Shown piece by piece: positions 1,882-33,638 of a DNA stretch of 64,000 nt. Origin of the DNA: Nocardioides sp. Lineage in GTDB: Bacteria > Actinomycetota > Actinomycetes > Propionibacteriales > Nocardioidaceae. The stretch covers positions 1 to 64,000 of the forward strand of contig JAOPXU010000412.1 of NCBI GenBank assembly GCA_025964985.1, written 5' to 3'. The translations under genes and the position numbers were made by a program. Each line of letters starts with the position of its first letter. Within the stretch, counting starts at the first letter, position 1. A model generated the notes under the pieces. It was not told where the DNA came from, made no database searches, and saw only the letters and a list, made by a program, of their open reading frames with translations.

Positions 1882-3384
1882 TCAGGCGTCGTCGTCCTGG
1901 TCGAAGTCCGGCCGTGGTCCGCCGCCGCCCGGCCCGCCGAATCCGCCGCCGCCACCGGCCGTGCTGGCGTCGGTCGCGGTGAGGGAGCTGAGCTCGACGC
2001 CGTCGACGGTGACCGTGTAGGTCTCACCGGCGGTGACGCCGGCTGCTGCGACCAGGGCGCTGCTGGTGCTGGTCGTCACCGCGAACTCGGAGACGACGGT
2101 GCCGTCGCTGTCGAGGATGCTCACCAGCTGCCCGACCTCGATCCCGTCAGTGGGGACGGTGAGGACGGCGGGCGCCTCGAGGGTGCCGTTGGCGTCGAAG
2201 GCGCCGGTGCCGCCGCCTCCCGCGACCGTGGCGCTGGCGATGACGGTGGTTCCGCCGGTGAGGCTGACCGAGCCGTTGGAGTCGATGCTGTCGCTGCCGG
2301 CGTTGATGGTGACGGTGCCGCTGGTGACGCTGAGGGACACGCCTTCCTGAACTTCTTCTCCGCCGCCGGCGGTCGCGCCGGTGGTGGCGTTGAGGCCGTC
2401 GTCGCTGGCGGTGACGTCGACGCTGCCGCCGGCGATGGTGATCACGGCTGCTTCGACGCCCTCTCCGGAGCTCGGGACGACGAGGGTGCCGCCGGCCACG
2501 TAGACGGCTCCGACTGCGTCGATGCCGTCGGAGGCGCCCGAGGCGGTCACGGTGCCACCGTCGAGCAGGACCCAGCCGAGCTCGCCGGCTGTGTCGCTGT
2601 CGGACTTCAGGCCGTCGCCTTGCGCGGTGACGGTGATGTCGCCGTCCTCGACGACGAGGTAGTCCTTGCCGCGGATGCCGTCGTCGACGGCGTCGACGGT
2701 GATGGTGCCGGACAGGATGACGAGTCCGTCCTTGCCGGCGATGCCGTCGTTGCTGGTTCCGCTGACCTGCAGGCTGCCGGTGCCGGCGATGGTGAGGTCG
2801 GCCATCGAGAACAGGGTTGCTGTCGGTGCGTCCTCGTCCTCGTCGTCAGCTGAGGATGCGGCTGCGTCGGCCAGGGTGTTGGTGGTCCCGTCGGCCAGGA
2901 CGACCACGGCCTCGTCGGCGGCGGTGACCACCAGGGGCGAGGTGCTCGCAGACGTGATGTCGGCGCCGTCGAGGACGAGGACGACCTTGCCGTCGCCGGC
3001 GCTGTCGACGACCACCTGGCCGTCGCTCAGGATCCCGGCGATGAGGTAGGTGCCTGCGGTGCTGATGGTGACGACGTCGCCGTCGACCGTTGCACCGGCC
3101 CCGTCGACGGTGCTGGCGTCGTCGGCGAGGGTGATGGTGGTGGCGCCCGCGGTGTCGTAGTCGGCGTCGTCGGTCTGTGCGTGCGTGTCGTCCAGGGCGG
3201 TGGCGGTGGCGGAGACGGTCGTGGCGTCCGTCGCGGCGGTGCCGTCGGTGGTCGTGACCGTGGTGCTGGACGCAGCGCTGTCAGAGGTGGTGTCGGAGGT
3301 GGTGGCGCAGGCGCCGGCGGTGAGCAGCAGGACGCTCGTCGCGGCGGCGGCGGCGAGCCGGCGGCGCAGTGGGGTGGTGTTCAT
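1882..3384 (-). CDS. Secreted/lipoprotein carbohydrate-binding (DUF4353-type) protein
   Basis: Signal peptide with lipobox-like 'LLLTAGACATT'; repeated 'DGIxGKDxLVI..G.ITVxAxxDGL' motifs; ATG at 3384 overlaps the stop of the upstream gene. Confidence 0.8.
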   Translation of the reverse strand: MNTTPLRRRLAAAAATSVLLLTAGACATTSDTTSDSAASSTTVTTTDGTAATDATTVSATATALDDTHAQTDDADYDTAGATTITLADDASTVDGAGATVDGDVVTISTAGTYLIAGILSDGQVVVDSAGDGKVVLVLDGADITSASTSPLVVTAADEAVVVLADGTTNTLADAAASSADDEDEDAPTATLFSMADLTIAGTGSLQVSGTSNDGIAGKDGLVILSGTITVDAVDDGIRGKDYLVVEDGDITVTAQGDGLKSDSDTAGELGWVLLDGGTVTASGASDGIDAVGAVYVAGGTLVVPSSGEGVEAAVITIAGGSVDVTASDDGLNATTGATAGGGEEVQEGVSLSVTSGTVTINAGSDSIDSNGSVSLTGGTTVIASATVAGGGGTGAFDANGTLEAPAVLTVPTDGIEVGQLVSILDSDGTVVSEFAVTTSTSSALVAAAGVTAGETYTVTVDGVELSSLTATDASTAGGGGGFGGPGGGGPRPDFDQDDDA

Positions 3385-4193
3385 CGGGGACTCCTGGGTG
3401 GGTTCGGGCGGAGGTCGGGGCGGACGTTGAGGTGGCGGTCGAGTGCTCGGTGCCACTTCAGGTGCGGTAGCTCGTGGTGCAGGGCGGCCATGCCGGCGCC
3501 GTACTTGGACAGGCGCACGGGTCTGTGTCCGTGCGACCACAGGAGCCGGTCGACGGCTGAGGGAGTTGATCCGGTCTTCGTCTCGATGACGGCGATCGAG
3601 GTGCGCTCGAGGTCCTTGCCGGTGATCACCGAGGTCCAGCCGAGATCGACGTCGATCGTGACCCGCGTGCTGCCGGCGGGCAGGAGGAGCGTCGTTCGGC
3701 GGTAGGCGGTGGTGAGCACGGGTTCGAGGTCGCGCACGGTGTCCGCGCCGATGGTCTCGGTGATCAGTGCCGCGCCTGCTGGTGTGATGCCGCATTCGAC
3801 GGGGTCGGGGTGCGCGACGCGTCGCTTGACCGTCTGGCCGCGCGGGCCGGCGGTCTTGGTCTCCAGGAAGCTGCCGCCGGTGTCGAGGTAGAGCCGACCT
3901 CGGACCTTCCACCGCCCACGTCGGGACCGGCCGGAGGTCAGGTAGCTGCGACGGTCGGGGGTGTCGAGGTAGGTGGAGCGGTAGGTCATCTCGCGCCGGC
4001 CGTCGAGCTCGAGCACCCGCGTGTCCCGAGGTAGCTCGTCGAAGACGTTCGCGAGGTCACGTCGAGCGATGACGTACTTGCGGTCCACCCGTGTCTGCAG
4101 GGGCGCCACCAGGAGGAGCTCGTCGAGACCGATGGGGCCCAGTGCCTCAAGCGCTCCGAGGGCCTCGGGTGCCTGGGCTGCTGGGGCGGTCAT
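3381..4193 (-). CDS. VTC domain-containing (polyphosphate polymerase-like) protein
   Basis: 'RVDRKYVIARRDL', 'YRSTYLDTPDRRSY', 'FLETKTAGPRGQTVKRR', 'VIETKTGS' are VTC tunnel-fold motifs. Confidence 0.85.
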   Translation of the reverse strand: MTAPAAQAPEALGALEALGPIGLDELLLVAPLQTRVDRKYVIARRDLANVFDELPRDTRVLELDGRREMTYRSTYLDTPDRRSYLTSGRSRRGRWKVRGRLYLDTGGSFLETKTAGPRGQTVKRRVAHPDPVECGITPAGAALITETIGADTVRDLEPVLTTAYRRTTLLLPAGSTRVTIDVDLGWTSVITGKDLERTSIAVIETKTGSTPSAVDRLLWSHGHRPVRLSKYGAGMAALHHELPHLKWHRALDRHLNVRPDLRPNPPRSPR

Positions 4194-4870
4194 CGCAGCG
4201 ACTTCGGGTCGTGGGAGGCGACGGCGCTGCGCTCGCGCGAGGCGCGTCCGTGCGGGAGGTGCCCGGGCTCCATGGTGGTGAGGGTCGGCGGCTCGGGGTC
4301 GCCCGGCGTGGTGGTCCCGGGCTTGGTGCTCGCGGGCCGGTAGCGGACGTCGACGAGGGTGGTGTCGTTGACCAGGTCGTTGCGGACCACCTTGGCGGAG
4401 ACCACGGTCGCGCCGAGCAGCCCCTCGAGGTGTGCGACGAGCGCCGCGTCGCTGGTGTGGGCTCGGTCGAGGAGCAGCTGCTGGGTCTCGGTGCTGGGGG
4501 CGAGCCGGGGGTGGTCGCCGATGAAGACCGCGCAGAGGACCGCAGCCATCAGGACGAGGTCGGTCGTGGCGGCGCCGGTGTCGAGGCCGCCGAGCAGGCC
4601 CAGCGTGAGGGCGGCGAAGTAGTAGGCGACCTCGTGCTGTGCCAGCTCCTCGGATCGGAGCCTGATGATCGAGAGGATGCCGAACAGTCCGAGTCCGAGA
4701 CCGGCGCCGATGGTGCTGGTCGCCAGGGCAGAGGCCACGGCCAGGACCCCGACGTTGGTGGTCAGGAACGCCACCACGAGCTCGGGGCGCGGGTGGCGGC
4801 GCAGGAACAGGCCGAAGACGAGGACGGTGACGGCGACCAGGTCGGCGACGTAGAGGGTGTAGGCGGGCAT
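4190..4870 (-). CDS. DUF4956 domain-containing membrane protein
   Basis: Hydrophobic N-terminal helices followed by 'GLGLFGILSIIRLRSEELAQHEVAYYFAALTLGLLGG', typical of DUF4956; overlaps the VTC gene start. Confidence 0.8.
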   Translation of the reverse strand: MPAYTLYVADLVAVTVLVFGLFLRRHPRPELVVAFLTTNVGVLAVASALATSTIGAGLGLGLFGILSIIRLRSEELAQHEVAYYFAALTLGLLGGLDTGAATTDLVLMAAVLCAVFIGDHPRLAPSTETQQLLLDRAHTSDAALVAHLEGLLGATVVSAKVVRNDLVNDTTLVDVRYRPASTKPGTTTPGDPEPPTLTTMEPGHLPHGRASRERSAVASHDPKSLR

Positions 4871-5161
4871 CGGGGTCTCTCCAGACAGTTCGGGGTGGTT
4901 GTTCTCAGTAGGCCGTTCGCGTCAGTGCTGGGCGTGGGTGCGCCCTGTGTGCTTGCTGTGAGCGCGCTGCCTGTCGGCGACCACGTGCGCCACCGGGCGA
5001 CGCTGTCCAGCGGGATCTCGGGCGCGGCGCGGCCCGGGTCATTGGCTCCTGGAGGTCCGGGTCGGTGAGGACACGGTGGCCGCGGGGCCTGTGGGCGTCC
5101 TGCGCCGGAGCAGTGCGGGACATGGCGGTCTGCGGCCGTGCCGGCGGGCTAACCTCGGCCC

Positions 5162-5875
5162 ATGGTGCGGATCCTGCTGGTCGAGGACCACGACGCGATC
5201 CGACGCACGCTCACCCGTGGTCTGAGCGATCTCGGCGCTGTGGTGACCGCCGTTGCGACGGCGGTCGAGGCGATCCAGAGCCTTGCTGCCGATCGACCCG
5301 ACGTCGTGCTGCTCGACCTGGGCCTGCCCGACCTCGACGGCTCCGACGTGCTGACGATGGTGCGCGCGACCAGCGACGTCCCGGTCGTCATCGGCACCGC
5401 GCGTGACGACGAGCGGGAGATCGTCCGCCTGCTGGATGCGGGAGCCGACGACTACCTGGTCAAGCCGTTCTCGGCCGCGCACGCGATGGCCCGGGTGCGT
5501 GCGGTGCTGCGGCGTACGACGACACCGCTCTCGGGGGACCAGCGTGTCGTGGTGGGCGACCTGGTCATCGACCCGTCCTCGCGGACCGCGACGGTCGCAG
5601 GTGCCGAGCTGACGTTGAGCCGCAAGGAGTTCGACCTGCTCCTCGCTCTTGCCGCCCGGGCCGGCGAGGTGGTCAGCAAGGCCCAGCTGCTCGCCGATGT
5701 CTGGGGTCTCCCGTGGGGCGGCGCCGACCGTACTGTCGACGTGCACCTGTCGTGGTTGCGCCGCAAGCTGGGCGAGACCGCGGCCGCGCCGCGCTACCTG
5801 CACAGCGTCCGCGGAGTCGGGGTGAAGCTCGTCGCGCCCATCTCGGACCCGACGCCCACTACTGAGCAGCCATGA
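5162..5875 (+). CDS. OmpR/PhoB-family response regulator
   Basis: Receiver 'VRILLVEDHDAIRRTL...VVLLDLGLPDLDG...DYLVKPF' plus winged-helix C-terminus 'LSRKEFDLLLALAARAGEVVSKAQLL'. Confidence 0.95.
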   Translation: MVRILLVEDHDAIRRTLTRGLSDLGAVVTAVATAVEAIQSLAADRPDVVLLDLGLPDLDGSDVLTMVRATSDVPVVIGTARDDEREIVRLLDAGADDYLVKPFSAAHAMARVRAVLRRTTTPLSGDQRVVVGDLVIDPSSRTATVAGAELTLSRKEFDLLLALAARAGEVVSKAQLLADVWGLPWGGADRTVDVHLSWLRRKLGETAAAPRYLHSVRGVGVKLVAPISDPTPTTEQP

Positions 5876-7308
5876 GCCTGCGCACCAGCATCGTCGCTCT
5901 CGCGGTCGGGGCGGCCGCCGCCGTCCTGCTCCTGTTCACCGTCCCGGTCGCCCTGAGCACCCTCGCTGCTGAGGGTGACGAGGCTGAGCAGGAGGCCGTC
6001 ACCCTCGTGCAGGGCGTGGCCGACGTCGTCAGCAGCAGCACGGCTGACCGCGGCGACATCGAAGCGGTCGTCGAGCGCGCCAACGGGCGGCGCAATGACA
6101 CCCCGGTCACGGTCGTCCTGGCTGACGGCACCTCCGTCGGTGCTGTCCGAGAGGAGTGTGCGAGCGTCGCGCTCGACGTCGACGTCGAGGGCGACCGTGG
6201 CGACCGCGAGAGCCGCGACGACGACGAGGGCCGCGACAGCGACCTCGACGAGCTGCTGCCGACCACGGAGGTCGACGACGTCGACGTCGACGGCGGCCAC
6301 CTGGTGCGCGTCGCGGCGACCGGGGCCGGGGGCGACGTCGTGGTGTGTGGCTACGTCAGCGACGCGCAGGTGCGCGAGGCCGTCACCGAGCGACTCGGTG
6401 CCCTGGCACTCGCCGCGGTGGTGGTCCTCCTGGTCGTCGCCGCGGCCGCCCTGCTGGTGGCGCGCCGGATGGCGCGGCACCTCGTCGTCGCCACCGCCAC
6501 GGCCGACCGGCTGTCGCGTGGGGACCTCGCGGCCCGCGTGCCCGACGCGGGACCGGTCGAGGTACGCCGAGTGGGCGCGGCCTTGAACCGGCTGGCGGGT
6601 CGCATCGACGAGCTCCTGACCCAGGAGCGCGAGTCCGCCGCCGACCTGTCACACCGGCTCCGTACTCCGTTGATGGCGGTGCGCCTCGACGTCGAATCGC
6701 TGGAGGAATCGGCGGCGAAGGACGAGCTCGACGCGGACCTCGACGTCCTCGAGCGCACCCTGACCGCTGTCATCGCCGCGGCTCGCCGCCCGCAGCGCGA
6801 AGGTGTGGTGCCGGGTTGTGACGCCGTCGAGGTCGTCCGAGCCCGCCTGGACTACTGGTCGCCGCTCCTCGAGGACCAGGGCCGCTCGACCTCGCTGGTG
6901 ATCGCGGTGGATGCGACGCAGGCGCCGGTGCGGTGCGCTGCGGAGGACCTCGCGGCTGCGATCGACGCGTTGCTGGAGAACGTCGTGGCTCACACCGGCG
7001 AGACCGTTCCCGTCGAGGTCGAGATCGCCTCCGTCGACAGCGGGGGTGGCGGCGACGGTGGTCTCGAGGACCAGGTCGCCGAGGGATGGGTGCGGGTCGA
7101 GGTGCGTGACCAGGGCCCCGGCGTACCGTCGAGCGCCCTGCAACGCGGACGCAGCGATCGCGGCTCGAGCGGGCTGGGCCTCGACATCGCTCGAGCGTGC
7201 GCGGAGTCGACGGGCGGACGACTCGAGCTCGACCGGATCGACGAGTGGTCCGTGGTGCGCCTCGTGCTCGGCCCAGCCGACTCACAGGTGGTCTTGACCT
7301 CGACTTGA
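5872..7308 (+). CDS. Sensor histidine kinase
   Basis: ATGA overlap with response regulator; HAMP region, 'DLSHRLRTPLMAVRLDVESL', 'SSGLGLDIARACAESTGGRLEL'. Confidence 0.93.
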   Translation: MSLRTSIVALAVGAAAAVLLLFTVPVALSTLAAEGDEAEQEAVTLVQGVADVVSSSTADRGDIEAVVERANGRRNDTPVTVVLADGTSVGAVREECASVALDVDVEGDRGDRESRDDDEGRDSDLDELLPTTEVDDVDVDGGHLVRVAATGAGGDVVVCGYVSDAQVREAVTERLGALALAAVVVLLVVAAAALLVARRMARHLVVATATADRLSRGDLAARVPDAGPVEVRRVGAALNRLAGRIDELLTQERESAADLSHRLRTPLMAVRLDVESLEESAAKDELDADLDVLERTLTAVIAAARRPQREGVVPGCDAVEVVRARLDYWSPLLEDQGRSTSLVIAVDATQAPVRCAAEDLAAAIDALLENVVAHTGETVPVEVEIASVDSGGGGDGGLEDQVAEGWVRVEVRDQGPGVPSSALQRGRSDRGSSGLGLDIARACAESTGGRLELDRIDEWSVVRLVLGPADSQVVLTST

Positions 7309-13193: not shown

Positions 13194-15110
13194 TCAGGTC
13201 GTCGTGGGTTCGGCACCCTTGGTCGCCTCGACCGGATCGACCGGACCGGCCGGAACGAGGCTGTCGGGTGGCGACATCGGTCGCAGGAGGCGCCGACCGA
13301 CCAGCCACCCTGCCCACGGGATGCCGATGAGGAAGAACGCCCGTTCGGGTGCGCCGGAGGTCACGTCGACGGCGTGGGTCACCTCGCCCCAGTTGAGGAT
13401 GGTGGCACTGAGCACCAGGTAGCCCACGAACATCAGGGTGCGACCGCCCTCGGGCAGGCGTTTGCTGCTGATCCGGGTGAAGCTGGAGTCGCTGAGGACG
13501 GAGTAGACGATCCCGACCACGACGGTGATCACCGCGGAGAGCCCGAAGATCGCGCCGAGAGCAGTGATCCAGTCCCCGCGGCTCAGCGCCAGCCAGGCGA
13601 ACACCGTGAACGCGGCCAGCGCGACGAGTCGTACGTCGTCGAGGCGCCGCCACCGCGCGGCGAGGACGACCGCGACCGCCACGGTCACCACGGCGTCGAC
13701 CAGGGGGTAGGAGAAGCCCGGGTTGGCGTCCCACGTCTGCAACCAGAGCTGGGGTGCCGCCCAGGCACAGATCACCACGAGGCCCGACGCCGTCTCCTTG
13801 GTCAGCAGACGTCGCTGCGACGTGCCGCGCGCCAGCCACAGTCCGACACCGAGACCCACCAGGGCGACGATGGGCAGACCGTGCTCGATGAGCCAGTCGG
13901 TCGGGAAGGCGTCGACGTAGCCGGGCAGGCGGTAGGCGTCGAAGTGGGTGACGGTGACGATCCCCGCCCCGAGCAAGACCATGAACACCAACACCGGAAG
14001 GGCCAGCACCACCACACTGCTGTAGACCAGCCGTTCCTTGGCCTGGTCGAACGCCGCGGTGACAGGGTGCCGGGTCACTGCGCGCACCAGCAGTGCGAGC
14101 AGCAGCACCGAGACCACCGTGCGCGCCACCGAGAGCCGGCTGTCGGCGAGGTAGGCCGCCCAGAAGTCGGTCTCGCGGCCGACGATCCACCAGAGCTTGA
14201 ACGCCAGCAGCACGACCAGCAGCAGTCGCAGGGCACCGACGGCGAGGTCGCGTGCGGCTTCGGCGACGCCCTCGGCCACGTCGAGGCTGAAGTCGACGAG
14301 CAGCACCCCGGAGACGAACAGCAGCGGCAGGAGCAGGGAGTCCACCTCGCCGATCGAGATCGACAGCAGGCTCTGGACCGCGCCTGGCGCTCCGTCGTCG
14401 ACGTAGGCGATGTGCACCCACAGGTGGCCGAGGAAGCACGCCGCTAGTCCCACCACGGTGCTCAGTCGCAGGACGGGTCGGGCCCAGCGGTCCACTCGCG
14501 GCACGAACGCGGCCAGGGCAGCGGCCAGCATCGCAACCCCGGGTGCGAGCCAGCCGGCGGTGATCACCTCGGAGCCGTAGCGGACGGCGAGGCTGTCGCC
14601 GACGTCGACCCCGGACCTGTTGCTGAGCCCGGCGGTCGTCACCAGGTACAGCGCTCCCACCGTCACGCGGACCGCGGCCGAGGAGGCCAGGGCGCCCCAC
14701 AACAGCAGGGTCCAGCCGACCGCGAAGGCGACCAGGGTGACCGGCAGCAGCCGCTCGGGCAGGAACACCAGCGTCGCCTCGTCGCCCGTCGGCAGCATGG
14801 TGCCGCGGCGCCACAGATCGCTGAACAGGGTCGAGGCGAGCAGGAGGGCCAGTGTCACCAGCCCGATGCGGGCTGCTTGGCGTTCGACCCAGGACGTGCC
14901 GGTCAGCGTCAGGTGGCTGTCGACGACGGGGTCGCGGAAGGCGGTCCTCCAGATGGGCCCGATGGGACGTGCGGCTCGCCGCGCCCGCCGGACGAGCGGT
15001 CCTGGCCGAGGTGCAGCACCAGCCGAGTCGGCCAGGTCGGCTGCGGTGGTCGATCCCGGTACGTCGGGAGCCGGAGACAGGGCGGACTGAGATGCGTCGA
15101 GTTCGGTCAC
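13194..15110 (-). CDS. Large polytopic membrane protein, unknown function
   Basis: 638 aa with many predicted TM helices; ATGA-type overlap with upstream gene. Confidence 0.8.
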   Translation of the reverse strand: MTELDASQSALSPAPDVPGSTTAADLADSAGAAPRPGPLVRRARRAARPIGPIWRTAFRDPVVDSHLTLTGTSWVERQAARIGLVTLALLLASTLFSDLWRRGTMLPTGDEATLVFLPERLLPVTLVAFAVGWTLLLWGALASSAAVRVTVGALYLVTTAGLSNRSGVDVGDSLAVRYGSEVITAGWLAPGVAMLAAALAAFVPRVDRWARPVLRLSTVVGLAACFLGHLWVHIAYVDDGAPGAVQSLLSISIGEVDSLLLPLLFVSGVLLVDFSLDVAEGVAEAARDLAVGALRLLLVVLLAFKLWWIVGRETDFWAAYLADSRLSVARTVVSVLLLALLVRAVTRHPVTAAFDQAKERLVYSSVVVLALPVLVFMVLLGAGIVTVTHFDAYRLPGYVDAFPTDWLIEHGLPIVALVGLGVGLWLARGTSQRRLLTKETASGLVVICAWAAPQLWLQTWDANPGFSYPLVDAVVTVAVAVVLAARWRRLDDVRLVALAAFTVFAWLALSRGDWITALGAIFGLSAVITVVVGIVYSVLSDSSFTRISSKRLPEGGRTLMFVGYLVLSATILNWGEVTHAVDVTSGAPERAFFLIGIPWAGWLVGRRLLRPMSPPDSLVPAGPVDPVEATKGAEPTTT

Positions 15111-17935
15111 GGTCGGGGCTCCAGGATCATCATGGCGCTGCCGAAGATGGTGGCGGGTACGAGCAGTCGGCCGTCGCGGGTCGCGCTGAACGACGGCGTC
15201 AGCGTGTAGCCATGCGACGGAGGCGCGAAGGCCCCCAGGAACGCTCCCGTGCGGGTGTCGTGCACCGAAATCCGGTACTCGCGTTGGTAGAGGTCGTGGG
15301 TGCGGCCCTGCTCAGCGACGTAGGTGCGGTCGCCGACGACCACAGGACGCCCGGCAAGTGCGGAGCTCAGCTGCAGCCGCCACAGCTCGGCCCCGGTGTC
15401 GGCGTCGAGGGCGAGCACGAGGCCGGACTGGTCGCCGTGCACGACGACCCCGTCGTCGGCGGCCGGCCCGAGCTCACCGAGCGGGCTCTCCACCACCCAG
15501 CGGACCTGGCCGGTCTCGGCGTCGACTGCGCCGATGCCGCTGGTGTCGGCGATCCGGAAGACCTGCCCGAACACCGTGCCGTCGTCGTACGCCAGGGCGC
15601 CCAGGGTCTGCCCGTCGGCCGCCTTCCACACCGGCTCGCCGGTGCGGCCGTCGTAACGGGCCAGACCGCCACCGCCGTAGACGACGTCGCCCACGGGCAG
15701 AGCCACGGGCGAGGTGCCGCCCATGTCACCGGGGACCTGCTGCACCCACATCGGCTTTCCGTCACGCGAGACACCCACGATCCCGGCACCCACTAGGGGC
15801 AGGAAGACGGCGTTCTCGCCGATGGCGGGCTGCGTGTACGGCGTGGGGGTGGTGGCCGGGTGCGTCCAGAGCGGGTCGCCGCCGTCCGGTCCGTAGGCGA
15901 GATACTCCTCGCCCTTCTGCACCACGACGAGGTCGTCGTCGACACTGACGCCCAGGCCCACCCCGGGCCCCTCGACCACCGTCTCGACCGTGCCGTCGGT
16001 GGTGCTGCGCAGCAGCGACTCGCCGCTGGGCGTGAAGAGGGTGGACCCAGACATGTCGGAGCCGAACGACGGCGACGCCGGCAGGTCACGAGTGCTCACG
16101 CGGAACCACACGCCACCGGTCGCCGCCTCCGCGGTGGTCGGGTAGGCGAACAGGGTGGTCTCCTGCCCGACGGCCTCGGTGTCCGCACCGATGACGAGCG
16201 AGCCGTTGACGAGTCCGAGGTCGAGGTCGCAGAGCAGGTCGCCGGAGACGCCGCGGGGCAGGTCCCACCCGGTGTCCTCGGCTCCGTCGTCGAGGTCGCG
16301 CACCGAGACCCGGCCCGCCTTGGACACGGTGATGACCTGCTCGCCGACGATCGCCGGGGCCACGACGGTGGTGGGGAGGTCGCGCTGCCAGCGCAGGTCG
16401 CCGTCCTCGAGGGCGTAGGACTCCAGGTGGTCGTCGTCACCGAGCAGCACGACCTCGTCCTCGCCGAGGGCCAGGTGGGTGGGCAGGTCGCGGCTGATCG
16501 CCTCCCACACGATGGTGCCGCCGCCGTCGAGGGCGTAGACGCTGCCGGCGTCGTCGGCGACGACCACGCGACCGTCACGCGCGAGGGGGCCGGCGGTGAG
16601 ACCGCTGCCGAGGTCTTGTCGCCACAGCTCGGAGCCGTCGTCGAGGTCCAGGGCGAAAACGCTGCCGGCCGGGTCGGCGACGACCAGTGCCCCGGTGTCG
16701 ACCGCCGGCGCCGTCGTGAGCCGCACCCCGAGGTCCTCGGTCCACTCGACCGCGCCGCTGGCCAGGTCGATCGCGGTCATCAGACCGTCGTCGCTGGCCA
16801 CCAGGGCCAGCGACCCGTCGACGGCCGGCTCGGTGGACACGATGTCGCCGAAATGGTGCACCCATCGAGCCGCACCGTCGGCGAGGTCGAGGGCCCACAG
16901 GTTCTTGGTGCCGTCGGCGACCAGTACCCGGTCGCCGGCCATGGCCGCGGTGGCGAGGATCGGGCCCTCGAGGCGGACCCGCCACCGGATGGCGCCGCTC
17001 GCGTGCTCACGGACCGTGACCTGGCCGTCCTCCTCGACCAGGACGGCGACCTCGTCGTCGCTCACGGGCGCCCAGCCCAGGTCGACGGCCGGGGTGTCGC
17101 TCCACGCCAGCGTGGGCTCGAGCCGGCCCTCGAGCACCGCACGGGTCCGTCCGGGGTCGAACCCGGCCTGGCTGCCCGGTCCCGGGTCGGCGTCCACGGC
17201 CGGTGGGCGCTCGGCGTACCAGCTGTCGGCGGCGCCGTGGAACTCGACGAGCTCCTCGGTGATGAGCTTTTGTCCGGGCAGGTCAAGCACGGTGCGCACG
17301 GCGCCGTAGCCCGGACAGGACCACTCCTCCACCACCTCGACGTCGGCGGGTTCGTCGCTGGGCTCCTCGTCGGGTGCGGTGACGGTCTGACGGGACTCGG
17401 TGTGCACGCAGTCGGTGAAGGTGCGGCCGCCGACCTCGAGGTCGGTGATGTCGAGGATCTCGGAGGTCGAGTCGAGGGTGAGCGACCCGACAAGTCCGTT
17501 GAAGGACCAGGTGGCGCCGACCTCCAGGGGCAGCTCGAAGGAGGCGGCGGGCGGTTCGACGGCGAAGTGCTGGGCCTGCTGCTGCAGGCCGTACTGGAGC
17601 AGCTGCTGTCCGTCGTCGCTGAGGTTGAGGTCGACGGTGTTGGAGGTGGGACCGCGCCCGGGATAGTCGGTGTAGCTGCTCTGCAGCTTGACCGCGTCGA
17701 GGGCCTCGGCGTTGAGTCCGGCGGGTCCGGTGATCTGCTTGGTGCGGGTCCCGGACGGCTCGTCCCCGGCACGGACGTCGTAGACCCAGGTGGTCCCCAG
17801 CTCCAACGGCTGGAGGAGGGCGAGCTCGTCGTCCTCAGGCGATGGTTCGGCGACGTGGACCAGCCCGGCCATGACAGCGGGGACCAGGACCAGCGGGGGC
17901 AGCCAGGCTGCGCCCCGCCTGGCCCGGGACGTCAT
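15107..17935 (-). CDS. Secreted PQQ-type beta-propeller repeat protein
   Basis: Repeats such as 'VFALDLDDGSELWRQDLGSGL', 'GSVYALDGGGTIVWEA', 'VLALDADTGAELWRLQLSS'; N-terminal signal anchor. Confidence 0.85.
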   Translation of the reverse strand: MTSRARRGAAWLPPLVLVPAVMAGLVHVAEPSPEDDELALLQPLELGTTWVYDVRAGDEPSGTRTKQITGPAGLNAEALDAVKLQSSYTDYPGRGPTSNTVDLNLSDDGQQLLQYGLQQQAQHFAVEPPAASFELPLEVGATWSFNGLVGSLTLDSTSEILDITDLEVGGRTFTDCVHTESRQTVTAPDEEPSDEPADVEVVEEWSCPGYGAVRTVLDLPGQKLITEELVEFHGAADSWYAERPPAVDADPGPGSQAGFDPGRTRAVLEGRLEPTLAWSDTPAVDLGWAPVSDDEVAVLVEEDGQVTVREHASGAIRWRVRLEGPILATAAMAGDRVLVADGTKNLWALDLADGAARWVHHFGDIVSTEPAVDGSLALVASDDGLMTAIDLASGAVEWTEDLGVRLTTAPAVDTGALVVADPAGSVFALDLDDGSELWRQDLGSGLTAGPLARDGRVVVADDAGSVYALDGGGTIVWEAISRDLPTHLALGEDEVVLLGDDDHLESYALEDGDLRWQRDLPTTVVAPAIVGEQVITVSKAGRVSVRDLDDGAEDTGWDLPRGVSGDLLCDLDLGLVNGSLVIGADTEAVGQETTLFAYPTTAEAATGGVWFRVSTRDLPASPSFGSDMSGSTLFTPSGESLLRSTTDGTVETVVEGPGVGLGVSVDDDLVVVQKGEEYLAYGPDGGDPLWTHPATTPTPYTQPAIGENAVFLPLVGAGIVGVSRDGKPMWVQQVPGDMGGTSPVALPVGDVVYGGGGLARYDGRTGEPVWKAADGQTLGALAYDDGTVFGQVFRIADTSGIGAVDAETGQVRWVVESPLGELGPAADDGVVVHGDQSGLVLALDADTGAELWRLQLSSALAGRPVVVGDRTYVAEQGRTHDLYQREYRISVHDTRTGAFLGAFAPPSHGYTLTPSFSATRDGRLLVPATIFGSAMMILEPRP

Positions 17936-17952
17936 GGCCGGGCGGCTCACGG

Positions 17953-20907
17953 TTACAGCCCGGCAGGGATGGTCGCGGTGAGGATGTCGTCGCCGCCGTA
18001 GACCGAGTCCTGCCACACGAGCCGGTCGCCCGAGATCGACGGGAAGCCCTGCTGGCCGGGTTGCGGCAGCAGGTCGTAGACGGCGCCGGTCGCGTGGGAG
18101 TACAAGAAAAGGTCGGTGTCGGGGAACACACCGAGCGCGTCGTTGGCCTCGGCGACGCCGCCGCCCAGCGTGGCAGTGATCTCGACGAAGACGCTGTAGT
18201 CGGCGCTCATGGCCGCGCCATACGGCTTGGCGTCCTGCGAGAGCACCGTGACGTCGCCGCCGCTGCCGACGATCGCGGCCTGGCCCTCGTCGGTCACGGC
18301 CAGCACCCGCGTGCCATGGGCAGCGACGTTGACGACCTGCCCCTCGACCTGACCGAGCTCGACGATGTCGCCCCCTGGGGTCCAGGCGAGGACACGGCCC
18401 TGCTCGGTGCCCAGGCCGACGACCCCGCCGCCGGTGCCGACGGCGGTGATGGCGTCGCCGCCCAGATCAGGCAGAGGCGTCGTGGACACCTGCCCTGCGG
18501 GGTCGACGAAGTACAGGGCGCCATCCCCTTCGACCTGCCACGCTGCGCCTTCGGCGGAACCTCCGAGGCCGGCCAGCAGGGTCGAACGGTCCGCGCCGGA
18601 CAGCTCGGTCCGGGTCCCGTCAGGTGCGGTGCGCACGATCGAGGCCTGCGAGCCGTCGGGAGACTCGAAGGTGACCACCGCGTCCCCGGAGAACGCCAGC
18701 ATGGCGGTGTCCGGGGTGCTGCTGACGTCCTCGGCACTCGCTCCGACGGAGCTGGTGTATGGCACACCCCAGTTGCCCTCGATAGCGGTCGTCCAGGCGA
18801 CCTGGTCGCCGGAGACGGCCGGGGACAGCTCGGTGACCGGGTCGCCGGAGATGAGCTCGCCGCCCACGGGGCCGACGTCGGCGCAGCCGGCGCAGATGTC
18901 GTTGCCGTCGAAGACTTCACGGGCCAGCGACAAGATCCTGGGATCAGCGCCTGCGTCGACCGCGACCTGTTCCACGGCGGTGCGCGCATCGACGAAGCCG
19001 GAGGACGGTCCGAGCTGGGTGGTCAGAGCGAAGTACACGATCCGGTCGAAGTCCTGGGCCAACGGGGACTCCAGACCGGTCGAGTTGTCGATCTTGGCCA
19101 GGGTGCTGCGGATCGTCCACAGCGAGTTGTTCCAGATGGAGGAGTTCAGGTGCACCCCGCCGTGGTCCTGGTTGCCGAATCCGAGCTCGCCGAGCCGCAG
19201 GCCCGGGTTGAGGACCGAGAGGTAGTCGCCGTAGCCGGTCCCGTCGAGCATGTAGCGGGTGGCGCGCTGCCCGTCGGGGTTGGTCGCGCAGCCGTAGGTG
19301 TCGGCCGGGATACCGGTGCAGGACTGCTCGGAGAAGCTGTCGGAGTCACGGCCGAGGTAGGCGTCGCCGATCACGTTGCCGAAGTAGTCGGCGAAGCTCT
19401 CGTTGAGCGCTCCTGACTGTCCGGCGTAGATCAGGCCGGCGCTGGTGTCGATGACGCCGTGGGTGATCTCGTGTCCGGCGGTGTCGATGTCGACGGTGGA
19501 GCCCGTGATCGGTTCGCCTCCATCGACGCACGGGTTGCCGTAGACCATCTGCGGCGGCGTGAGCGTGCTGCTGTAAAACGCGTTGCACACTGCGTCACTG
19601 TTCTCGGAGTTGACCGTGGACACCAGGCTGGAGCCCGCGTCATCCCAGGAGCGTCGCCCGAGCTGGGCGTAGAAGTCGTAGACGGCGCGGCTGAGGGCGT
19701 GCGCGGAGATCACCTCGGGGTCGGCGATCTGCGTGCTGTCGGAGGTGTAGACGGGGCCTGGCAGCTGCTCGGTGTCCCGGGCGTCGTTGGTGACGATGCC
19801 GCCGGTACCGGTCGCTGCGTCGTAGGTCGGGGTGGTCGTGTCGATCAGGGCGACGCCTTGGTCGGTCTGCTGGCCCTGTGCGGTCAGCGTCATGCCGAAC
19901 GGGTCGGTGCCGGTGACCTCCACGCTCGGTCCTTCCGCGATCCGCGGCACGGCCGCGGCGGCACCGGCGCCGGGCAACGGCGCACCGCGCACGAGCCGCG
20001 GAGCCGACCGGGTCCAGCGGTGGTGGCTGGGGACCGCGCGATCGGCGGCCAGGGCCCGGTTGTCGATGACGTCGCCGGTCGTGGCGTCGAGGTAGAACAA
20101 TCCGTCGGACAGGGTGAGACCTTCGCGCTGGCGGGTGACTCCGGCCACCGTGATCTCCCAGGTGAGCACGCCGGTGTCGTGGGGCAGCACGGTCAGCACA
20201 GGGTCGCCGACGGTCTGGCCGCCGGTGAGGGCAGCGATCCGACGGGCTGCCCGGGCCGCCGGGATCTGCGGCTGGGTGGACACGTCGAGGCCGGGGAAGA
20301 CCCGTCCGCGGACGTGGTGCAACCGGTCGTCGTCACTCGTGCCGCCGAGGCTGAAGACCAGCTCGCCGTCGCGCACCGGGACGTCGTCGAACGTCTGGGT
20401 GGCGCGGATGGTAGTGGCGGCCGGGCCGGTCTCGTCGAGCTGCAGGGTGCTGGCTTCGCCGAGGGCCAGGTCGGTGTCGTCGATGCCGAACAGCTGCTCG
20501 CCGTAGGCGCCCATGAGCTCCTCGACCACCGCAGCCCCGGACCCGTTGTCGGGATCGCCGTACCCGCCGCCGGAGAGCTCAGCGAGGTAGCCGGTGACGT
20601 CGTCTTGTCGTCCGACCCACCCCGAACCGGTGACGGCGCGCAGCTCATCGACGCCGTCCGCGAGGTCGGCCAGCCGGGCTCGCACCACCTCGGAGCTCGT
20701 GTTGCGCACGAAAGCGTCGGAGGCGATGAGGGTGGTGGGTCCGGGGCCTCCGCCGCCGAAGCCGGTGGAGGAGTCCTCATTCCGGGAGCCGTCGCAGCCC
20801 GTCGCGGCGAGCGCGACGAGCGCGACGAGCGCGGCTCCTGCAGTGCGGCGGACGGGGCTCCGGTACGAGCCGGGCGCGATCGAGGCGTTCGGTGGCGGTG
20901 TCATCAT
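17953..20907 (-). CDS. M4-family (thermolysin-like) metallopeptidase with C-terminal beta-propeller-like region
   Basis: 'HEITHGVIDTSAGLIYAGQSGALNESFADYFGNVIGD' (HExxH...E), lipobox 'LVALAATGCDGS', propeptide-like N-region. Confidence 0.9.
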   Translation of the reverse strand: MMTPPPNASIAPGSYRSPVRRTAGAALVALVALAATGCDGSRNEDSSTGFGGGGPGPTTLIASDAFVRNTSSEVVRARLADLADGVDELRAVTGSGWVGRQDDVTGYLAELSGGGYGDPDNGSGAAVVEELMGAYGEQLFGIDDTDLALGEASTLQLDETGPAATTIRATQTFDDVPVRDGELVFSLGGTSDDDRLHHVRGRVFPGLDVSTQPQIPAARAARRIAALTGGQTVGDPVLTVLPHDTGVLTWEITVAGVTRQREGLTLSDGLFYLDATTGDVIDNRALAADRAVPSHHRWTRSAPRLVRGAPLPGAGAAAAVPRIAEGPSVEVTGTDPFGMTLTAQGQQTDQGVALIDTTTPTYDAATGTGGIVTNDARDTEQLPGPVYTSDSTQIADPEVISAHALSRAVYDFYAQLGRRSWDDAGSSLVSTVNSENSDAVCNAFYSSTLTPPQMVYGNPCVDGGEPITGSTVDIDTAGHEITHGVIDTSAGLIYAGQSGALNESFADYFGNVIGDAYLGRDSDSFSEQSCTGIPADTYGCATNPDGQRATRYMLDGTGYGDYLSVLNPGLRLGELGFGNQDHGGVHLNSSIWNNSLWTIRSTLAKIDNSTGLESPLAQDFDRIVYFALTTQLGPSSGFVDARTAVEQVAVDAGADPRILSLAREVFDGNDICAGCADVGPVGGELISGDPVTELSPAVSGDQVAWTTAIEGNWGVPYTSSVGASAEDVSSTPDTAMLAFSGDAVVTFESPDGSQASIVRTAPDGTRTELSGADRSTLLAGLGGSAEGAAWQVEGDGALYFVDPAGQVSTTPLPDLGGDAITAVGTGGGVVGLGTEQGRVLAWTPGGDIVELGQVEGQVVNVAAHGTRVLAVTDEGQAAIVGSGGDVTVLSQDAKPYGAAMSADYSVFVEITATLGGGVAEANDALGVFPDTDLFLYSHATGAVYDLLPQPGQQGFPSISGDRLVWQDSVYGGDDILTATIPAGL

Positions 20908-20916
20908 CGTGTCCGC

Positions 20917-22026
20917 TCAGCCGCCGGCGAACAGGTCGATCGACCCGTTCAGCAACACGCTCCAGCTCTCCTGGGTCGCGGTGATCTCGTCGAAGGATGA
21001 GTTCTCGATGTTGATCATCAACACTGTGCCGTCCTGGCGGACCGCGGCGTAGATGTCTCCGGCGACCGGGGCGGAGCCCTGGGAGTCGGTGTAGGTCGCC
21101 TGATAGCTGATCAGCGCTGCCGAGACGACGCCGCCGAACGGCTGCAGCGGCGTGATGTCGGAGAGCTCGGTCTGGGTGTAGGTGTCGGGGGCGAGGAAGA
21201 GCTCGATCTGTCCGTTGATCACGTTGCCGGCCTCGACCGAGGCGTCCTCCACAGCACCGGTGACGATGTAGACCAGGTTGTTCTGGTCATCGGCCATGAG
21301 GACGTTGCCCTGGGGGTTGTCGGTGAGCACCTGGAAGTTCGAGGGCACGACGACCTGCACGCCGTACTCGGGCAGGGTGAGGACATCTCCGATGGCCTCC
21401 GTGGGCTGCGTCGGCTCAGCGGGCGGTTCGACCGGCGGTTCTGCCGGCTCATCGACCGGGGGGACCGGCGCATCGCTCGTCGCCGGTGCAGTCGGCGTGC
21501 TCGGCGCAGCGGGCGTGCCGGGGGCCGGGGTGGTGCCCGGCTGAGGCGCGGCGGTGCCGACCGGCTGGGGGTTCAGCACGCTGGAGCCTTGGCTGCTCTG
21601 GGACCGGTCGTCGGAAGTGGGGGAGTCGTCTCCGCCTCCGAACGCTGCGGCACCGACCGCACCGAACACGCCGGCGGCCACGACACCACCCACGATCAGA
21701 CCGATCGTCTTGCCCTTGCCGGACTTGAAGTTGCCACCAGGGGTGGCGACCGGCGCGTATGACGGCGGGGGGAAGCCCGGCCCGGCGTGACCGGGTTGCG
21801 GGGTGTATCCCGGCTGCGGGGCGTACCCGGGCTGAACGTGCTGGTCAGGCTGAACCGGCTGGCCGGGCTGGCCGGGCTGAACGGGTTGTGGAGCGTAACC
21901 CGGCTGCGGGGCGTACCCGGGCTGCTGCGGCGGCTGGGCTACGCCCTGCTGGACCGGCGGGACCGGCTGCTGAACGGGCTGCGGGGGGATGGGCTGCTGG
22001 GGGACGGGAGCCTGGGGATCGCTCAT
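20917..22026 (-). CDS. Pro/Gln-rich single-TM protein with extracytoplasmic domain
   Basis: Repeats 'QPGYAPQPGYAPQP', TM 'KTIGLIVGGVVAAGVFGAVGAAAFGGG', C-terminal folded region 'LPEYGVQVVVPSNFQVLTDNPQGNVLMADDQNNLVYIVTG'. Confidence 0.8.
   Translation of the reverse strand: MSDPQAPVPQQPIPPQPVQQPVPPVQQGVAQPPQQPGYAPQPGYAPQPVQPGQPGQPVQPDQHVQPGYAPQPGYTPQPGHAGPGFPPPSYAPVATPGGNFKSGKGKTIGLIVGGVVAAGVFGAVGAAAFGGGDDSPTSDDRSQSSQGSSVLNPQPVGTAAPQPGTTPAPGTPAAPSTPTAPATSDAPVPPVDEPAEPPVEPPAEPTQPTEAIGDVLTLPEYGVQVVVPSNFQVLTDNPQGNVLMADDQNNLVYIVTGAVEDASVEAGNVINGQIELFLAPDTYTQTELSDITPLQPFGGVVSAALISYQATYTDSQGSAPVAGDIYAAVRQDGTVLMINIENSSFDEITATQESWSVLLNGSIDLFAGG
21780..22000. repeat. Degenerate tandem repeat encoding PQPGYAPQP / QPGQPGQPVQP
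   Basis: Recurring cccggctgcggggcgtacccgggctg units. Confidence 0.6.
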
Positions 22027-23237
22027 GACTGTCCTCCGTTCTTAAGCGAGCCGCTATCGGAAGCTGTTGCTGGCGCGGACATGTGCTTGCGGGCCTGGTG
22101 GGAGGAGGAGCGGACCGAGGTGCCGCACGCGATGCAGAACATGGAGCCGACGAGCAGCATGTTTTCGCACTCGGGGCAGAAGGTCTCGACGAACGACTCC
22201 CGCTTCGACCCGGTCTTGGCTGCGTCCTCTATAGCGGCCTCGAGCAGAGCGGCTTGGAGCATCACCCGGATGCGGATGACGAGGAAGCCGAGGATGATCA
22301 GGCCCCACAGCAGCCCGAGGGCCTGGCCGAACGGCAGGTGCGCGGCGGCCCGCACGCCGAGCCAGTACAAGATGTTGGCGCCGGCTGCGAGAGCGAAGTT
22401 GCGCAGGTACAGGCCGGTGAAGCCGTCGTAGCCCTCGCCCTTGCCGGAGAACGACGCGACCGCGATGCCGGTGGCGGTGCCGTAGATGAGGGACTTGACC
22501 ACCATGACGTTCAAGACGATGACCAACCAGCTCGCCAAGCCCTGGGTGGTGCGGAACTCGCCACTGGTGAACACCGAGCCGAAGACGATGATGGTCTCGA
22601 ACGCGGCGTAAGCCGTGCCGGCGGCGATGCCGAAGGTGAGGCCGTCGATCATGTCGTCGAACTGCGGACGCCTGGCGAGCAGTACCGCCGGGAGGTTCTT
22701 GACCACCTCGGCGATCAGCGGGAGGGCCACGGCGAACAGCAGCAGACCGGTGATCGACAGCGACTCGATGCCGCCGCGTCCTGAGGACTGCAGCAGCTGT
22801 CGCCACTCGGTGTCGAAGACCCACTGGTAGAAGGTGAGCGAGACGAGCACGGCGAGTGCTCCGGTGACCAGGAACAGGCCGGCGACCACTGGGGCCGGCG
22901 CGTCCTCCCACATGTTGACGTCGTAGATGTAGACCAGGTAGGCGATCGGCACCATGAACGCCGCTGCTGCGATGGCGATCGGCAAGAAGCCCAGGGCGGC
23001 GCTGCCGACGATGAACACGGCGCTGAGGATCATCGCCCAGCGGTAGTTGTCAGCCGTTTCGCGATTGGTGTGGGGCATGATCGTGGAGATCAGCGCGAAC
23101 TGGTTGACCCCCTCCGACGACTGCACCGCGTAGGTCGACGTCCGCGAGGACGCGTTGCCGCGGAGTGAGGCTCCGCAGCGATGGCAGAAGGCTGCAACTT
23201 CAGGATTGTCGGTTGCGCAGGTCGGACAAGTTGCCAC
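22023..23237 (-). CDS. Dual zinc-ribbon membrane protein with PrsW-like (possibly inactive) domain
   Basis: N-terminal 'CPTCATDNPEVAAFCHRCG', C-terminal 'CPECENMLLVGSMFCIACG', TM core with 'LIAEVVKNLPAVLLARRPQFDDMIDGLTFGIAAGTAYAAFET'. Confidence 0.75.
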   Translation of the reverse strand: MATCPTCATDNPEVAAFCHRCGASLRGNASSRTSTYAVQSSEGVNQFALISTIMPHTNRETADNYRWAMILSAVFIVGSAALGFLPIAIAAAAFMVPIAYLVYIYDVNMWEDAPAPVVAGLFLVTGALAVLVSLTFYQWVFDTEWRQLLQSSGRGGIESLSITGLLLFAVALPLIAEVVKNLPAVLLARRPQFDDMIDGLTFGIAAGTAYAAFETIIVFGSVFTSGEFRTTQGLASWLVIVLNVMVVKSLIYGTATGIAVASFSGKGEGYDGFTGLYLRNFALAAGANILYWLGVRAAAHLPFGQALGLLWGLIILGFLVIRIRVMLQAALLEAAIEDAAKTGSKRESFVETFCPECENMLLVGSMFCIACGTSVRSSSHQARKHMSAPATASDSGSLKNGGQS

Positions 23238-23334
23238 GGTGCTGGTCTCCCTCGGGCGGGGTGATGGAGTTGTGAGGCCCGAGATGCCGTCAAGCCGGAT
23301 CCTTCACCTCGCGAACTGAGGGCGTTCGCGTTTT

Positions 23335-23363
23335 ACACAATGTGCTAGGAAAAAAGTTTGTGT
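23335..23363. promoter_or_regulatory. A/T-rich promoter region with inverted repeat upstream of 22-13 kb operon
   Basis: ACACAA (23335-23340) ... TTGTGT (23358-23363) within ttttacacaatgtgctaggaaaaaagtttgtgtgac. Confidence 0.4.
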
Positions 23364-23911
23364 GACTAGGAGGGAACGACTGTTGCGGCCGCTGGCTCTG
23401 GTCGGCTGCGGCGTCCGGGTAGTTCCGAGGCCGCGTAACGCCGAGACGCCGCCGGCGACCGATCGGTCCGTGCGCCGCTCGAGTCATGTCACAGCCGCTG
23501 ACTGGAGCGGCTAGGCCACCGTACGGTGCGATTGGATGCCGGCTGTTCGGGAGTGTGGTCGGCGCTCCGGGGCCGCCTCGTCCTATGCCGCTGCTGTGGC
23601 GGGGCGGCCTCCCGGATGCACGACTTCCCCAGGGCGACCCACGCGCAGCGCTCGCTGATGCTGCCTCGCTCTTCTCCGACGAGGCAGCACCAGCAGCAGC
23701 CGCGTCCGCTCCTGTGGGGACAAGAAGACGGACGGCGACACCGGACGACTCGGATGCTCGCCCTGGCTCCGCGACGCTAGGGACGTTCTCGCCAGCACGC
23801 AGCCGATTCGGGATGAGTCTCACCAGTTGTAGGGAAAGCGCCGTCGCCCAGGCCCGTGGGCTGAGGAGACGGGCTCGAGAGCTGGTCCCGCCCCGAGCGA
23901 ACGCGGCGGGA

Positions 23912-31066: not shown

Positions 31067-31681
31067 TCAGGGCAGGGCGTCTGCGGGCGGCGGTCGTACC
31101 TCGACCACGCCCGGGACGCTGGAGACCATCACCCGGGCCAGGGTGGAGTCGCCGCGGCCGAGGGCGTCGAGTCCGGCCAGGCTGACGATGCCGTCGCAGA
31201 CCTCGACACCGAGGTCGTGCAGCCCGACCGAGCCGAGGGCATCGAGCACGTCCTGGGCGAGGCCCGCATCGGCTCGTGCGAAGCACCGGACCACGTCGGC
31301 GCGACTCAGCACGCCGCGCACGCATCCCTGGTCGTCGACGACGGGGACGCTCTTGACGGTGGTGGAGGTGAGCAGGTCGACGGCGACGGTCAGCTCGGTG
31401 CCAGGGCTCACGGTGACGGCGTGAGCAGTCATCACGTCCCCGACCGTCGCGGGATGGACACGGCCGTGGTCGAAGGACCGGTTGAGGTGGGCGCGCGGGT
31501 CGTGCGGCACCAGCTCCCGGATCAGGTCGGCTTCGCTCACGACCCCGCAGAGGCGGCCGCCGGTGAGCACCACCGGCAGGGACGTGATGCGGTGCAGGTC
31601 GAGCAGCTCGAGCGCCTGCTTCACCGACGCGGTCGGGACCACGGTGACCGGGTCGAGAGTCATGATGTCCTGGACGAGCAT
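31067..31681 (-). CDS. CBS-domain protein (HRP1-like)
   Basis: 'MLVQDIMTLDPVTVVPTASVKQALELLDLHRITSLPVV...VGDVMTAHAVTVSPGTELTVAVDLLTSTTVKSVPVVDDQGCVRGVLSRADVVR'. Confidence 0.88.
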   Translation of the reverse strand: MLVQDIMTLDPVTVVPTASVKQALELLDLHRITSLPVVLTGGRLCGVVSEADLIRELVPHDPRAHLNRSFDHGRVHPATVGDVMTAHAVTVSPGTELTVAVDLLTSTTVKSVPVVDDQGCVRGVLSRADVVRCFARADAGLAQDVLDALGSVGLHDLGVEVCDGIVSLAGLDALGRGDSTLARVMVSSVPGVVEVRPPPADALP

Positions 31682-31737
31682 GGCGGTCCTCCTGACCGGT
31701 CGCCTCCAGGGTGCGTCATCGCAGAGCCTGGTGAGCA

Positions 31738-31751
31738 GGGGCGAAGGTCCC
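31738..31751. promoter_or_regulatory. Candidate DosR-like box in divergent promoter
   Basis: GGGGC-GAAG-GTCCC, 57 bp from CBS start and 58 bp from ligase start. Confidence 0.5.
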
Positions 31752-31808
31752 CCGGCGGCGGGCCGGTGCTCCCTGGTGCTGTCCTTCCGACGACCACAGC
31801 ATCGGGAC

Positions 31809-33638
<1,830 letters not shown>

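Follow-up and report, generated by a model that had tools for sequence, protein, structure and literature searches.

The five genes described here would, at a probability of about one half, specify a membrane scaffold or sensor, made up of a catalytically dead PrsW-fold protein and a Mog1-type partner, and a lipoprotein M4 protease module to which it is coupled. Judged by gene order in relatives, we read the locus as two modules, module A (P0001-P0002) and module B (P0003-P0004-P0005), and not as one ancestral operon. It was found in a Nocardioides draft genome (4.48 Mb in 426 contigs, 89.7% complete, 6.2% contamination) on contig C85, in a window of 64,000 nucleotides, by which we mean the whole stretch of DNA that was analysed. 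The individual families are known. The initial annotation knew of no described system with this set of genes, and we likewise found no description of the combination in the open-access literature, a search outside of which most subscription journals lie.

Gene layout and spread of the two modules

Positions 13194-23237 of the window are filled by five co-directional minus-strand ORFs with a high GC3 of 0.86-0.91 throughout. As had been described, they are adjacent and either overlap or lie 2-9 bp apart. The junctions of P0001 with P0002 and of P0004 with P0005 are 4-bp overlaps (ATGA and GTGA, respectively), a 9-bp gap (20907-20917) separates P0002 from the M4 gene P0003, and the gap between P0003 and P0004 is 2 bp if P0004 starts at GTG 17950. 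This start is the likely one, rather than 18016: in relatives the PQQ gene begins beyond the M4 stop, so that the 64-bp overlap of the M4 and PQQ genes probably reflects a wrongly assigned start codon. A single A/T-rich promoter had been assumed in front of the five genes. The A/T-rich stretch upstream of P0001 (about 23331..23368, minus strand) exists and is a possible promoter, but a scan for sigma-70-type promoters gave no match on either strand, a neutral result as these organisms may use other promoters. Nor do relatives support the assumption: in them M4-PQQ-P0005 is divergent from P0001-P0002 wherever the junction is visible. The single terminator-like site falls within the M4 gene and is no better than chance. 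Because module B lies directly downstream of module A and in the same direction, the five genes are nevertheless probably co-transcribed in the source genome. The ~2.5 kb upstream of P0001 (23240-25800) are of lower GC and without a convincing gene, and may mark the insertion point of the locus.

All five families are adjacent, with module A divergent from M4(-M4)-PQQ-P0005, in Nocardioides RYN_190 (L046) and in the culturable species N. szechwanensis (L047/L058) and N. psychrotolerans (L059/L062), with ispF or carD nearby in each case. In RYN_201 (L056) P0001 is divergent from M4-M4-PQQ-P0005, and the sequence examined ends before P0002. RYN_190 carries two tandem M4-propeller genes that are ~54% identical (L046:5408-11291), and the same is seen in RYN_201. 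Every locus found with P0005, i.e. that of the window and those of the four named genomes, also has PQQ, M4 and P0001 adjoining; the gene order of module B is conserved in each with M4 adjoining P0001, and P0002 is present in four of the five, those in which the sequence examined extends that far. The scan that found P0005 in the four other genomes relied on short conserved patterns, so that some copies may have escaped it. Full-length relatives of P0003 (E<=1e-60) occur in four of 200 genomes of the family, source genome included. Partial arrangements were seen as well: in genome G026 M4 is the only module B gene beside the P0001-P0002 pair, and divergent from it, and G173, which belongs to another genus, carries M4 in this position but neither PQQ nor P0005. 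In seven genomes that belong to other families of the order, uvrB adjoins the pair (7/7) and coaE mostly lies on its other side (6/7), with one to three P0002-like genes and no peptidase, which argues that module A does not need module B. Judged by their spread across genomes, the pair is the more widely distributed and presumably the more ancient of the two modules; module B, complete in a few Nocardioides only, is the younger one.

Of the single five-gene operon first proposed, the conserved linkage stands, whereas the relatives have two modules in opposite orientation. A comparison of gene neighbourhoods, suggested at the time, finds that the families stay linked but that the full five-gene set occurs in Nocardioides only; the proposal was to fall if co-occurrence did not reach beyond close relatives, and for the full set, confined to this genus, that is partly the case. 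The co-directional order of the window is the exception, the relatives with a visible junction all being divergent. We think it real, even in a draft assembly, since the genes on both sides of the 9-bp junction are complete. A search for flanking inverted repeats as the cause of an inversion gave, near the junctions, nothing beyond weak repeats such as chance would produce, and plasmids contained no match to P0001 or P0005. The carD contig of the source genome (C203; L077, L078) ends just short of the site that carries the system in relatives.

This distribution can also be read as an ordinary nutrient-scavenging exoprotease operon beside a conserved membrane pair with which it has nothing to do; their proximity would then stem from a shared ispF/carD location and be functionally meaningless. 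We take this to be a serious possibility, at odds clearly below even. Across most of the order the pair has no peptidase beside it, these genomes commonly encode M4 proteases, and modules that are divergent in relatives need not share regulation. On the other hand, the locus of the window is set away from the ispF/carD neighbourhood and its modules are nonetheless together and co-directional; full-length P0003 relatives were not seen apart from P0001-P0002 where the flank is readable, and the pair is also found near two other peptidase types (see below).

Some further features were noted in passing. An AMP-binding enzyme (31482-33638, plus strand) is split over ORFs 31482-32927 and 32946-33638, which match positions 1-302 and 315-384 of the PF00501 profile and point to a frameshift, a pseudogene or an assembly error. 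At 1882-7308 a Cthe_2159-type carbohydrate-binding protein and a DUF4956 protein adjoin a response regulator/histidine kinase pair. A LanM-like lanthionine synthetase gene (DUF4135 and LANC_like) is present in genome G044 at L055:10242-13058, close to its P0001 locus.

The membrane pair P0001-P0002

P0001 (22023..23237, minus strand) is a polytopic protein of the PrsW fold with a zinc ribbon at either end. It matches the PrsW-protease family PF13367 (E 2.6e-7, 30.8 bits against a cut-off of 23.5) as well as Zn_Ribbon_1. The fold and the zinc ribbons of the initial annotation's dual zinc-ribbon PrsW-like protein are thus present, but the catalytic residues of PrsW are absent. We aligned 11 members of the P0001 family with eight other PF13367 matches from five genomes. 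The EExxK motif reads AExxK in P0001; across the family its first glutamate is replaced by Ala, Ser or Gly (by Ala or Ser in copies from Nocardioides and elsewhere in the order), and no such motif is present in the copies of another Nocardioides, G119, and of the distant family f17. Both active-site histidines, which have been placed in TMH5 and TMH6 (PMC4602095), are replaced in all aligned family members and present in the canonical paralogues. EExxK is retained in all eight other matches, one of them in the source genome, where a canonical PrsW is encoded on contig C73. The alignment script had chosen the canonical frames by EExxK; a recheck of the matched intervals without that choice again gave EExxK in 8/8. 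P0001 retains one glutamate of EExxK and the glutamate of motif 2.

Since the PrsW residues are lost, we regard P0001 as a pseudoprotease, predicted to be catalytically dead and not credible as a protease, with a small residual chance of proteolysis through an unknown active-site geometry. An active intramembrane protease of the PrsW type would offer a different role for P0001, namely to activate the M4 zymogen, to release P0002 or to cut an anti-sigma factor. The Pfam match over cut-off and the two remaining glutamates favour such a role, and Zn-ribbon PrsW proteins have been noted before and predicted to be active signalling peptidases (Zhang et al. 2012, PMC3482391). We consider it unlikely and rejected it, given the replacement or absence of the EExxK motif across the family, against its retention in every other PF13367 match, the replacement of both histidines and the lack of an anti-sigma gene among the five. 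The same authors proposed that PrsW proteins take part in the export of polymorphic toxins (PMC3482391). A PrsW-fold gene that adjoins genes for large exported proteins is reminiscent of the systems described there. However, no toxin domain was recognised by Pfam or NCBIfam in any of the five proteins, no PrsW-toxin fusion is present and P0001 has lost the PrsW residues, so that this explanation was discarded as very improbable.

P0002 (20917..22026, minus strand) begins with a Pro/Gln-rich region, followed by one transmembrane segment (~residues 105-132 by hydropathy), a Pro/Thr stalk and a C-terminal domain (residues 206-369; 20920..21411, minus strand). The Pro/Gln-rich single-TM protein of the initial annotation was therefore correctly recognised. 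The AlphaFold model of the C-terminal domain (pLDDT 84.7) found matches by Foldseek with a probability of 1.00, an E of 4e-6 and a TM of up to 0.62, among them human Mog1, PsbP, SciW/EagT6, DcrB and mycobacterial MTC28, LpqN and Apa. We accordingly assign the modelled ectodomain to the Mog1/PsbP/LpqN-type fold. No named sequence family, LpqN or other, matched P0002 over the Pfam cut-off, and T7SS_Rv3446c did so below threshold only.

A P0002-like gene follows P0001 in each main locus that was seen to that side, in Nocardioides, in other families of the order and in family f17, and six of these genes were absent from the profile used. In G119, which carries module A without module B, P0001, the transmembrane segment, the stalk and the Mog1-type domain are joined into a single stop-free frame of 687 aa. 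Adjacency and fusion together are the strongest evidence that the two proteins share a function. Identity between species amounts to 69-76% for P0001 and to 40-55% for P0002-P0005, as for a conserved P0001 core with fast-evolving exported parts, although exported proteins may simply evolve faster.

Module B and the peptidases near the pair

P0003 (17953..20907, minus strand) carries both M4 domains (PF01447, 63 bits; PF02868, 67 bits) and matches bacillolysin/thermolysin in phmmer searches. Its active site (HEITH 479, NESFAD 502, GGVHLNS 583) bears out the M4 metallopeptidase with intact HExxH...E that had been annotated. The protein has a lipobox (ATGC), an N-terminal region of ~330 residues that appears to resemble an M4 propeptide, and propeller-type repeats (TIGR04275) at the C-terminus. 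The active site is kept in all P0003 copies and the lipobox in most of them. P0004 (15107..17950, minus strand) is an exported multi-propeller protein of the PQQ/BamB fold with an additional N-terminal domain. The PQQ-type propeller of the initial annotation holds as far as the fold is concerned (Pfam PQQ_2, E 5e-56), but phmmer and the best named matches are BamB-like; with four isolated cysteines and without the vicinal Cys-Cys of the PQQ site, P0004 was dismissed as a PQQ-dependent dehydrogenase. P0005 (13194..15110, minus strand) is indeed polytopic, with ~14 hydrophobic segments by hydropathy. It has no match in Pfam or NCBIfam, and its AlphaFold model is poor (pLDDT 42) and unusable.

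Peptidases of other types were found near the pair. The G119 fusion begins 56 bp after the gene of a clostripain-like (C11) peptidase (L085:7503-11736). In two genomes of family f17 (L086:8178-14999 and L088:1825-9851) the genes for a zinc-ribbon PrsW-fold protein, a Mog1-type protein and a polytopic protein of 805-838 aa are followed in the same direction by an S53/S8-type peptidase gene. One of these peptidases matches Pfam S8 (E 7e-7) and the other is 78% identical to it; the S53 label is our own reading of the sequences. In G393, one of the two, a gap of ~730 bp precedes the S53-type gene, which is thus not tightly coupled. In L088 a second, diverged zinc-ribbon PrsW-like gene follows the peptidase, with no P0002-like gene adjoining. 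The C-terminus of the f17 polytopic proteins may resemble P0005, a lead only: hhalign aligned 86 C-terminal columns with an E of 9e-4 and a probability of 23%, and the best non-family match of the P0005 profile had a best-domain E of 0.003, against 0.37 for reversed proteins. A Mog1-type domain within these polytopic proteins was not significant (E 0.05-0.17).

Coupling of the pair to different secreted peptidases (M4, C11, S53) is suggestive of a recurrent theme, three types being a small count, noticed post hoc, against seven peptidase-free loci. The dead PrsW-fold/Mog1 pair could be a general actinobacterial scaffold that deploys or controls surface peptidases, with the peptidase swapped by lineage and a P0005-related polytopic partner in distant families. 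We offer this extension tentatively and consider it rather doubtful.

Proposed model and relation to known systems

For the locus of the window we favour the reading that module A is a scaffold or sensor and that a surface protease is coupled to it. P0001 and P0002 would form a membrane complex, in which the zinc ribbons of P0001 are probably cytosolic. The Pro-rich tail of P0002 and its stalked Mog1/PsbP-type domain would lie on opposite sides of the membrane, the domain probably outside. Through this domain the pair may bind exported proteins or envelope ligands, and through the zinc ribbons it may report or recruit; it would not cut. Module B would yield a membrane-anchored M4 protease with its own propeller, probably secreted as a self-cleaving zymogen, together with P0004 as an exported BamB-fold propeller protein, while P0005 may anchor the module B proteins or help in their export. 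We infer a functional link between the modules, physical contact and a direction of signalling included. If the scaffold reading is true, the locus represents a pseudoprotease system in bacteria that is linked to proteolysis at the cell surface. A family match is often all that lies behind the name protease for members of the PrsW family, and such an automatic name is misleading here: the zinc-ribbon subfamily has lost the catalytic residues, yet it is the most conserved part of the locus.

P0001 resembles the PrsW family (PF13367; B. subtilis PrsW) in its over-cut-off sequence match and its polytopic nature, and differs from it in the missing first glutamate of EExxK, the two missing active-site histidines and the extra zinc ribbons at both ends. 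With the Zn-ribbon PrsW proteins of PMC3482391, for which a signalling role was proposed, it shares the joining of a PrsW domain to Zn-ribbons; going by that paper's description, the lost residues and the constant Mog1-type partner set P0001 apart. P0003 has the catalytic domain and active-site residues of thermolysin/bacillolysin M4 peptidases but adds a lipobox and C-terminal propeller-like repeats, and its gene lies in an operon with genes for a BamB-fold propeller and a polytopic protein. The fold of the P0002 domain is that of Mog1/PsbP-fold proteins (LpqN, MTC28 = Rv0040c, Apa, the Eag chaperones SciW/EagT6, DcrB, PsbP), and MTC28 and Apa share its Pro-rich secreted or surface context. 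Unlike these proteins, to which its identity is only 10-16%, P0002 contains a transmembrane segment, begins with a Pro-rich tail and has P0001 as its partner. In its logic, the putative P0001-P0002 scaffold is comparable, in our own view, to the iRhoms.
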